Part shown: positions 8,694 to 61,575 of the stretch, piece after piece | Position numbering within the stretch: position 1 is the first letter of the stretch | Layout of the letters: each line of letters opens with the position of its first letter | From: Phycisphaeraceae bacterium | GTDB lineage: Bacteria > Planctomycetota > Phycisphaerae > Phycisphaerales > Phycisphaeraceae | Direction: 5' to 3' | NCBI GenBank assembly: GCA_020849625.1 | Contig: JADLFV010000064.1 | Span: 1 to 64,000, forward strand | Length of the DNA stretch: 64,000 nt | Made by a program: the position numbers and the translations under genes | Notes under the pieces: generated by a model | The model's input: the letters and a program-made list of their open reading frames with translations, nothing else | Databases searched by the model: none | What the model was told of the DNA's origin: nothing

Positions 8694-9389
8694 TTACTCG
8701 GGCTTGGCGGGCTTTTCTTCCGCTGGGGCGGGGCTGGCGGGGGGCTGTGCATTTGCAGCGGGGGCGGCTACCTTGACGACCTGCATTTTGAAGATCAGGG
8801 TGGAGCTGGGCGGGATGGGGCCGTTGCCCTGGGGGCCGTAGGCCAGGTCGGAGGGGATGTAGATTTCGTATTCGCCGCCCTGTTTCATCAGTTGCAGACC
8901 TTCGATCCAGCCGGGGATGACGTTGAACTGAGTCGGGTCATAGATCAGCGGTTCGCCGCGCTCGAAGGAGCTGTCGAAGACGGTGCCGTCGATCAAGCGG
9001 CCTTCGTAGTTGATGGTGACGACGCTGTCAGCGGCTGGGGCGGGGCCGTCACCTTCCTTGAGGGTTTTGATCTGCAGGCCGGAGTCGGTGGTGGTGACGC
9101 CTTCCTTCTTGGCGTTCTCATCGAGGAAGGCGGTGCCGGTTGCTTCATTGGCCTGGCCCTGCTCCTGCATCTTCTGCATCATGGCCTGCTGCTGGTCCAT
9201 CATGCGCTGCTGGAAGGCCGCCAGGGCCTGCTGCATCTGCTGGGCACTCAGTTGCGGCTCACCCTGGCCGAAGGCCTGACGGAAGCCGGCGGCGAACAGG
9301 TCGGGGCTCTGAAGCTCGATGCCCTGCTGGCGCAGGTTCATGGCGGTGGCGAAACCGAGGGCATAGCTGATCTGCTGGTCGAGGGTCAA
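8694..9389 (-). CDS. FKBP-type peptidyl-prolyl cis-trans isomerase (Mip/FkpA-like), 5' end interrupted
   Basis: The open body gives about 231 residues from a TTG at 9389. An N-terminal helical dimerisation region (LSAQQMQQALAAFQQRMMD) is followed by an FKBP domain with SGLQIKTLKEGDG, VTINYEGRLIDGTVFDSS, VIPGWIEGLQLM and IPSDLAYGPQ, the standard order for Mip/FkpA proteins that fold exported proteins. The C-terminus is Pro/Ala-rich. The natural start is almost certainly ATG 9584, in the same frame, which encodes a signal peptide; an in-frame TGA at 9498-9500 separates it from this body. As it stands the isomerase would lack export unless the stop is read through or is an error. Confidence 0.8.
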   Translation of the reverse strand: MTLDQQISYALGFATAMNLRQQGIELQSPDLFAAGFRQAFGQGEPQLSAQQMQQALAAFQQRMMDQQQAMMQKMQEQGQANEATGTAFLDENAKKEGVTTTDSGLQIKTLKEGDGPAPAADSVVTINYEGRLIDGTVFDSSFERGEPLIYDPTQFNVIPGWIEGLQLMKQGGEYEIYIPSDLAYGPQGNGPIPPSSTLIFKMQVVKVAAPAANAQPPASPAPAEEKPAKPE

Positions 9390-9497
9390 CTCCGCGGCGG
9401 CTGCATCGGTTGTCGCTTCAACTGCGGCGGCGGGTGCTTCCGTTTCGACAGCCGCAGCGGCTGCGGGCTCTTGACTACTTCCGGGGGCGGGGGAACT

Positions 9498-9584
9498 TCA
9501 GGGGGTGGCGGTGTCTTGGGCCAGGGCGAAGGCGGTGCAGGTCAACAGCGCAGCTAAGGTCACGATCGTGTTACGTTTGAACAT
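9498..9584 (-). pseudogene. Signal-peptide fragment of the FKBP gene ended by in-frame TGA
   Basis: ATG 9584 starts MFKRNTIVTLAALLTCTAFA, a good signal peptide, and the frame stops at TGA 9498-9500 after 28 codons. The same frame continues without further stops through an Ala/Pro/Glu linker into the FKBP domain. The TGA lies in CCCCCTGAAGT, which differs by one base from the word CCCCCGGAAGT found just downstream in the same gene (plus-strand 9477-9487); the parental codon would be GGA (Gly). Confidence 0.65.
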
Positions 9585-11445: not shown

Positions 11446-12474
11446 ATGAAAAAACTCCGCATTGTCATCCTGATGCACGAAGACCTGGTGCCGCCGGACT
11501 CGACCGACGGCATGACCGATGAGCAGGTGGCGCCTTTCAAGACCGAGTTCGACGTGTTCGCCACCCTGCGCGACATGGGCCACGAGGTGCATCGCCTCGG
11601 CGTCAGCAGTGACCTGGGCGTGATCCGTAAAGCGGTGCGCACCATCGAGCCGCACGTCTGCTTCAACCTGCTGGAGGAGTTCGACGGCGTCGGCGTGTTC
11701 GACGCCCACGTGGTCAGCTTCCTGGAGCTGATCCGCCAGCGCTACACCGGCTGCAATCCGCGCGGGTTGATGCTGGCCCACGACAAGGCGCTGTCGAAGA
11801 TGATCTGCCGCTACCATCGCATCCCCGTGCCGCCGTTCCATGTTTTTCCCCTCGGCCGCAAGAGCCACCCCCGCCCCCGCAAGCTGGAGTTTCCCCTGTT
11901 CGTCAAGTCGCTGACCGAAGAAGGCTCGGTGGGCATCAGCCAGAAGTCGGTGGTTTATAACGATGAGGAACTGGCCGAGCGCGTCGCCTTCATCCATCGC
12001 ACGCTCAACACCGACGCCATCGTTGAGCAATACATCGACGGCCGCGAGGTCTATGTCGGCGTCCTGGGCAATCAGCGCCTGACCACCATGCCCATCTGGG
12101 AACTGCACTTCAAGAAATTGCGCGAAGACGCCCCCCGCATCGCCACCGGCAAGGTCAAGTGGGATTACAAGTACCAGGAAAAAGTCGGCGTCATCACCCG
12201 CGCTGCCGAGGACCTGCCCGAGGGCGCTGAGGTCACCATCCCCCGCCTCTGCAAACGCATCTACCGCGCCCTGTCGCTGACCGGCTACGCCCGCATCGAC
12301 TTGCGCATCGACAACGACGGCCACCCCTACCTCATCGAAGCCAACCCTAATCCGCAACTGGCCTACGGCGAAGACTTCGCCGAATCCGCCCATGCCGCCG
12401 GCATCGAATACGACGACCTGCTCCAACGCATCATCAACCTCGGCCAAGGCTACCAACTCACCGGCGTGGGTTAA
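11446..12474 (+). CDS. ATP-grasp ligase, D-Ala-D-Ala-ligase-like
   Basis: A 342-residue protein with the ATP-grasp fold: the nucleotide-binding lysine is in FPLFVKSLTEEGSVG (K154), the middle motif is EQYIDGREVYVGVLG, and the metal site is ARIDLRID plus YLIEANPNPQL (D285, E298, N300). ATP-grasp enzymes form acyl-phosphates and join them to amines. It is too divergent to call Ddl with confidence, and no cell-wall genes are near. Its partner is the metallopeptidase directly upstream. It may ligate a dipeptide or modify a peptide end. Confidence 0.8.
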   Translation: MKKLRIVILMHEDLVPPDSTDGMTDEQVAPFKTEFDVFATLRDMGHEVHRLGVSSDLGVIRKAVRTIEPHVCFNLLEEFDGVGVFDAHVVSFLELIRQRYTGCNPRGLMLAHDKALSKMICRYHRIPVPPFHVFPLGRKSHPRPRKLEFPLFVKSLTEEGSVGISQKSVVYNDEELAERVAFIHRTLNTDAIVEQYIDGREVYVGVLGNQRLTTMPIWELHFKKLREDAPRIATGKVKWDYKYQEKVGVITRAAEDLPEGAEVTIPRLCKRIYRALSLTGYARIDLRIDNDGHPYLIEANPNPQLAYGEDFAESAHAAGIEYDDLLQRIINLGQGYQLTGVG

Positions 12475-12538
12475 CCCCCGGAAGTTCCCCCCGGCGGAGA
12501 CCGCTTCAGCGGCCGTCTCTTCCGGTTAAACTCCCCCC

Positions 12539-61206: not shown

Positions 61207-61217
61207 CCCCCGGAAGT
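61207..61217 (+). repeat. CCCCCGGAAGT word
   Basis: One of four perfect copies in the window (also 12475-12485, 61451-61461, and 9477-9487 on the minus strand), with single-base variants at 9495-9505 (minus) and 61511-61521. Here it is in the leader of the lipoprotein gene. Confidence 0.5.
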
Positions 61218-61251: not shown

Positions 61252-61575
61252 ATGCGTCAGCTTCTTTTACTGACGGTCCCCGTACTGCTGGCCCTGGCGC
61301 TGGCAGCCTGTGATGCTGTCGGGCCCAAGGACCAGCAGGCCATCGTCAACGCTCCTCCCCCGGCCCAAGTCCCCGAGGCCGACCCCCAGGCCGACGCACT
61401 CACCGCCGCCATTCAGGCCCAGTCCGACCTGCTGGCCGAAGCCTCCTCCGCCCCCGGAAGTGCCGCCACCGCGACCGCTCCCCCCGTCGCCCACGAAGTC
61501 ATGTGGCTCACCCCCGCAAGTGACACCGGTTCCTCCGCACCCGCCCCCACCACCGAACGCCGTGGGCTGAGCTAA
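61252..61575 (+). CDS. Short putative lipoprotein, possibly the 5' part of an interrupted gene
   Basis: ATG 61252 follows AGGAGG. MRQLLLLTVPVLLALALAAC is a lipoprotein signal with the lipobox LAAC. The rest (107 residues in all) is a low-complexity Ala/Pro linker with AHEVMWLTP near the end. It stops at TAA 61573-61575, only 12 bases before the next start and in the same frame. The next product has no export signal, so the two may once have been one lipoprotein. Confidence 0.6.
   Translation: MRQLLLLTVPVLLALALAACDAVGPKDQQAIVNAPPPAQVPEADPQADALTAAIQAQSDLLAEASSAPGSAATATAPPVAHEVMWLTPASDTGSSAPAPTTERRGLS

Follow-up and report, generated by a model that had tools for sequence, protein, structure and literature searches.

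An in-frame stop codon in an FkpA/Mip-type FKBP gene lies in a variant copy of a word repeated throughout the genome of a Phycisphaeraceae bacterium

The stretch of DNA analysed here (64,000 nucleotides, called the window below) contains a gene for a secreted protein-folding enzyme, an FkpA/Mip-type FKBP, in which a TGA separates the signal peptide from the remainder of the protein. This in-frame TGA is very probably a nonsense base, due either to a recent mutation or to a wrong base in the assembly. The stop codon itself is ordinary, and on its own it is of little matter: one broken or misread gene. The surprising part is the sequence in which it is found. The stop lies in a one-base variant of a short word that recurs throughout the genome and is found across the family, and which seems to be undescribed in the literature searched. 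A literature search found no report of such a word in Planctomycetota, and a search with the word sequence itself gave matches only to unrelated primers or sequences. The features are collected in Table 1.

Table 1. Parts of the interrupted FKBP gene, and copies of the repeated word, in the window
Feature	Position	Strand	Remarks
Start ATG of signal-peptide ORF	9582..9584	-	28 codons, MFKRNTIVTLAALLTCTAFALA^QDTATP
Variant word CCCCCTGAAGT, differing from CCCCCGGAAGT by a single base	9495..9505	-	Sole CCCCCTGAAGT in 740 kb of genome
In-frame TGA	9498..9500	-	Shares frame with ATG 9584-9582 and with FKBP body ending 8694
Ala/Pro/Glu-rich linker, TGA to FKBP_N domain	9390..9497	-	No in-frame ATG or GTG
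Intact word CCCCCGGAAGT	9477..9487	-	Starts 18 bases after first word (9505-9495); Pro-Gly-Ser in frame
FKBP_N + FKBP_C body	8694..9389	-	231 codons + stop; Pfam PF01346 8.5e-23, PF00254 1.5e-25
CCCCCGGAAGTTCCCCC	12475..12491	+	Intergenic, right after stop of ORF 11446-12474
CCCCCGGAAGT copy	61207..61217	+	Upstream of small gene
CCCCCGGAAGT copy	61451..61461	+	Ala-Pro-Gly-Ser in linker of small gene starting with signal-like segment
CCCCCGGAA copies in window	4184, 9479(-), 12475, 18547, 25680, 48814(-), 58815, 61207, 61451, 63632(-), 63793(-)		

The preliminary description of this DNA had a signal peptide opened by ATG 9584 and stopped by a TGA, with the same frame running on into an FKBP domain; this layout is confirmed, on the minus strand. 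The signal peptide reads MFKRNTIVTLAALLTCTAFALAQDTATP up to the TGA. Five bases 5' of its ATG is a Shine-Dalgarno-like GGAG (9593-9590), and the signal region has a hexamer coding score of 0.84 in its own frame, compared with -1.3 and -0.6 when the frame is shifted. The first start-like codon past the TGA is TTG 9389. The FKBP body is open, with a strong hexamer coding score (1.40), and the active-site residues are kept (by eye, FKBP12 numbering), so that any loss is recent. The word CCCCCTGAAGTTCCCCC is present at the stop, as had been described, and CCCCCGGAAGTTCCCCC was found intact at the place given for it, on the plus strand. The second word in the linker, said to follow at a distance of 12 bases, in fact starts 10 bases after the TGA, which is 18 bases start to start from the first copy.

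The best PDB matches to the FKBP body are the Mip/FkpA-type PPIases 7dek, 1fd9 and 1q6u, and the Pfam models for FKBP_N (PF01346) and FKBP_C (PF00254) are both matched far over their cut-offs. The NCBIfam model for FkpA (PRK10902) gives 163.8 bits, under its curated cut-off of 215 bits, and the FklB-type model PRK11570 is matched at 7.5e-47, again under its cut-off. Judged by these sequence scores, the gene is a distant relative of FkpA and not an equivalog. It shares with the bacterial PPIases FkpA, Mip and FKBP22 the combination of FKBP_N and FKBP_C, a dimer-type N-terminal domain, and a signal peptide followed by a linker. It differs from them in that the signal peptide is split from the body by a TGA, and in NCBIfam scores below the FkpA and FklB cut-offs. 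A protein-level search of genome contigs found no close relative. The sole other FKBP match in the gene's own genome, on C31, is weak (5e-8) and lies in a 449-aa frame, and is not a close paralogue.

Orthologues were sought in the family, defined as Phycisphaeraceae by record titles, and the gene was matched in 47 of 51 genomes. It is absent from both g21 species (97% complete). Among 34 distinct orthologues, 32 are open from a hydrophobic signal segment, via a Pro/Ala/Glu/Thr linker, into the FKBP domain. None of these 32 has a cysteine in the linker. The uninterrupted in-frame signal peptide that they carry is absent from the gene described here. Since the orthologues are unbroken and begin with a signal segment, ATG 9584 is the inherited start, interrupted by the TGA. 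The two exceptions are L036, where a signal-like segment lies at the edge of the examined region, and L010, a signal-less copy in genome G030. An orthologue without a signal peptide had been named as evidence that would count against an interruption, but it is seen only this once, and there it adjoins a second matching copy, so that it does not refute the reading.

On the basis of these observations, we suggest that the gene codes for an exported FKBP of the FkpA/Mip type, present once in the genome, with two copies of CCCCCGGAAG in its linker, 18 bases apart. A T in place of G at the sixth base of the first copy would have turned an in-frame GGA into TGA. As assembled, translation would yield the 28-residue signal peptide and then end; the FKBP body would lack a good start, so that no exported enzyme would be produced. 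Translation past the TGA is presumably not rescued. The ancestral base at the stop position was probably G. This view comes from the word and not from a direct orthologue, because the orthologue linkers cannot be aligned base by base. The two-word composite of the FKBP linker, CCCCCxGAANNNCCCCCGCCCCCGGAAG, was scanned against 84,980 GTDB species. The 80 loci listed are all in Phycisphaerae or Planctomycetota records, most of them titled Phycisphaeraceae. Together they contain 91 copies of the composite from other Phycisphaerae, of which 90 have G where the stop has its T, one has A and none has T. IMG/VR viral contigs gave one match. The claim of a single G to T change (GGA to TGA) within a repeated word is therefore well supported.

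There are two ways in which a nonsense base could have come to be recorded. One is that it is an error in the assembly consensus, and that living cells carry G and have an intact gene; we consider the chance of this to be only just short of even. The draft assembly consists of 154 contigs, the site is within a C5/G5-rich tract, the remaining gene is fully conserved, and this gene family is near-universal in Phycisphaeraceae (47/51 genomes). By our own estimate, a lone nonsense base in about 4.8 Mb also fits the usual error rates. On the other side, CCCCCxGAA in this genome has G at x 216 times, as against T 3 times (A 2, C 4), so that this context is not systematically miscalled. Interrupted genes are also not in excess: a search of 740 kb for in-frame stops flanked on either side by coding potential found no systematic class of them, and the matches inspected by eye looked like ordinary gene borders.

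The other is that the sampled strain carries a real nonsense mutation, with the FKBP lost or weakly made, to which we give somewhat less than an even chance. The absence of the gene from some near-complete genomes of the family, namely those of both g21 species, indicates that its loss is tolerated, and no paralogue stands in for it, the match on C31 being the weak one noted above. What speaks against this is the 231-codon body, which has no other signs of decay. The preliminary description had listed a recent nonsense mutation, a sequencing or assembly slip, and tolerated readthrough. The first two are about equally likely. The third is unsupported, given that TGA is the main stop, RF2 is present, there is no SECIS-like fold, and relatives with a signal segment have no linker cysteine.

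A restart downstream of the TGA, at TTG 9389 or at an internal ATG, would give a cytosolic enzyme resembling FKBP22 or FklB. It has in its favour that TTG 9389 is placed exactly at the start of the FKBP_N domain, that one relative (G030, L010) has a signal-less copy, and that the fold is common to cytosolic FklB-type enzymes, to judge from the below-cut-off match to PRK11570. However, TTG 9389 has no spaced Shine-Dalgarno sequence, since the GGAG there abuts the TTG, the intact upstream start has a good ribosome site, and 32 of 34 orthologues are predicted to be exported. We therefore consider a restart improbable.

Insertion of selenocysteine at the TGA has to be considered, in that contig C109 (37568-44010, L090) carries a complete cluster of selA, selB and selD together with tRNA-Sec, and UGA can therefore be read as Sec somewhere in the organism. 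(The selD ORF of this cluster has an extra C-terminal domain that by eye resembles AhpD. No in-frame TGA is present in the match to formate dehydrogenase alpha on C86.) At the FKBP site, however, the surrounding 40-120 bases fold no better than shuffled sequences (z +0.3 to +1.4), a result of moderate weight as no positive-control selenoprotein was located in the genome, and Rfam gave nothing above a family threshold. The site is moreover a disordered linker and not a redox site, and a linker cysteine occurs in no signal-bearing orthologue. Selenocysteine at this TGA is thus very unlikely.

Equally hard to credit is a pair of compensating one-base indels, such that the region around the word would truly be read in +1 (PPEVPPPPEVV). 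Across the linker, the hexamer score of frame 0 is not clearly above that of +1, and at about 9500-9464 it favours +1 (0.4-0.5 vs -0.35 to 0.2). This reading would need two errors in about 40 bases where one substitution suffices; an Ala/Pro/Glu-rich frame 0 by itself yields GC-rich third positions in +1; and the length of the composite is constant in relatives, the T being the sole difference. A programmed +1 slip at CCC-UGA was rejected, as translation in the +1 frame stops within the linker and never enters FKBP, and so was a TGA-reassigned code: TGA is the commonest stop, closing 227 of the 330 long ORFs sampled from the genome, and prfB (RF2) is present, so that the genetic code is standard.

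A nonsense base within the word thus remains the preferred reading. The word itself is far more widespread than the preliminary description had noticed. The window contains four copies of CCCCCGGAAGT, compared with 0.03 expected under an order-3 Markov model. By the same model, the most over-represented words in a 740-kb sample of the genome are CCCCCGGAA among 9-mers (216 vs 4.2 expected), CCCCCGGAAG among 10-mers (159 vs 1.4) and CCCCCGGAAGT among 11-mers (78 vs 0.2). The whole genome contains 1,067 copies of CCCCCGGAAG, divided 533/534 between the strands, against 13 for the reversed control, and the enrichment genome-wide is more than 100-fold. No strand bias was found within contigs (chi2 36.4, 35 df). 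Copies are found both in genes (168 vs 2.9 expected), where all six frames are used, and between them (43 vs 1.7 expected). Coding copies have no significant low-complexity bias around them (p 0.18).

The core of the word is nine bases, followed by a G (71-74%) and then by a weaker T and G. The other flanks are random, and the word is therefore not part of a longer mobile element. Forms with one mismatch number 215 where 168 are expected by chance, compared with 216 exact copies (ratio +0.28). The copies are clustered, with 17 adjacent pairs less than 50 bases apart against 3.1 expected; there are direct pairs at 9-18 bases, and inverted pairs. In the region of L093:19386, two inverted words form a perfect 22-base palindrome, CTTCCGGGGGCGCCCCCGGAAG.

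Among the listed k-mers, three further sequences proved to be a false lead: TCGGGTATCGGG, TTTCGAGTTTCG and CCCTCTCCC belong to separate intergenic repeat families. The first has TCGGGTATCGGG as its unit, often in inverted pairs (the 12-mer occurs 37 times in 740 kb; for example L101:510-3251 and L110:19606-19710). The second consists of intergenic arrays of TTTCGAGTTTCG, paired in inverted orientation at a distance of about 90 bases (for example L097:1659-1754 and L102:11252-11343). The third is made up of hairpin pairs of the form CCCTCTCCC...GGGAGAGGG...GTGAGGGC (for example L095:13794-13887 and L125:3620-3709).

The distribution of the word in the family is uneven. In the DNA sampled from G014 (GC 62%) and G015 (GC 51%) it dominates to the same degree; it is abundant in G026, and absent or rare in sampled G010, G005 and G003. 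Whole-genome counts run from 1,180 in G014 down to about 5 in G004, G019 and G031. It is patchy even within one genus, g9, with 80 copies in G008, 3 in G036 and 8 in G061. Some relatives often have the word in tandem clusters. G033 contains tandem arrays with a period that varies between arrays (10, 11, 12, 15, 17 or 18 bases; for example C10:5205-5244, C21:77-131 and C53:1954-1999). In G008, a stretch of contig C1 at about 1050301-1057032 (L198) has eight words in 7 kb, compared with one per 50 kb elsewhere in that genome; it was possibly acquired from a word-rich relative.

What might such a word be for? We tentatively propose, as a possibility that falls well short of probable, that CCCCCGGAAG is a putative genome-identity signal of Phycisphaeraceae, serving DNA uptake or other recombination, and that it would be the first in Planctomycetota. 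Biased gene transfer may have spread it and maintained it, and the FKBP stop would then be a mutated copy within a gene. Supporting points are the abundance of the word, its strand balance, its sites in and between genes, its sharing among genera, and a ComEC domain in its own genome. The slight enrichment of one-mismatch forms, the tandem clusters and the lack of a significant preference for low-complexity sequence are unclear or do not support the proposal. The same holds for ComEC more widely: the domain is found in 44 of 51 genomes of the family, and these include genomes without the word. If the word does act in uptake or recombination, it would allow natural transformation in Planctomycetota, and biased gene flow there, to be tested directly.

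It is worth comparing the word with known genome-wide words. Like Chi recombination hotspots, it is short and non-palindromic and occurs throughout the genome; unlike Chi, it has no strand bias within contigs, and a Chi-like role is disfavoured for this reason. HIP1 of cyanobacteria is likewise a short word iterated genome-wide and patchy in relatives, but HIP1 is a palindrome and CCCCCGGAA is not. The Haemophilus USS is 9 bp long, and its over-representation falls from 182.9 to 2.0 from 0 to 1 mismatch (PMC1939737). The word here is also a 9-mer with a sharp fall from 0 to 1 mismatch (49.9 to 0.28, order-3 null), although it is less dense (one 9-mer per 3.4 kb) and has no extended AT-rich flank. 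With the Neisseriaceae DUS (10-12 bp; PMC3630211) it has in common that it is the top over-represented word of its length class, with about 1,000 copies on both strands, inside and outside genes, with some inverted pairs, and common to related genera. In Neisseria, one-mismatch copies of the DUS outnumber exact ones (1:1.15 to 1:1.45; PMC3630211), whereas here there are 216 exact and 215 one-mismatch copies, and chance alone would give 168 one-mismatch copies; one-mismatch enrichment is thus weaker than in DUS or USS, and tandem clusters at 9-18 bases are a further difference from the DUS. Overall, the word appears to resemble a DNA-uptake sequence most closely: about 1,000 copies of a 9-10-base word on both strands, in genera with sampled GC of 51-62%, with hardly any in the family's other members, is the pattern of the uptake sequences of Neisseriaceae and Pasteurellaceae.
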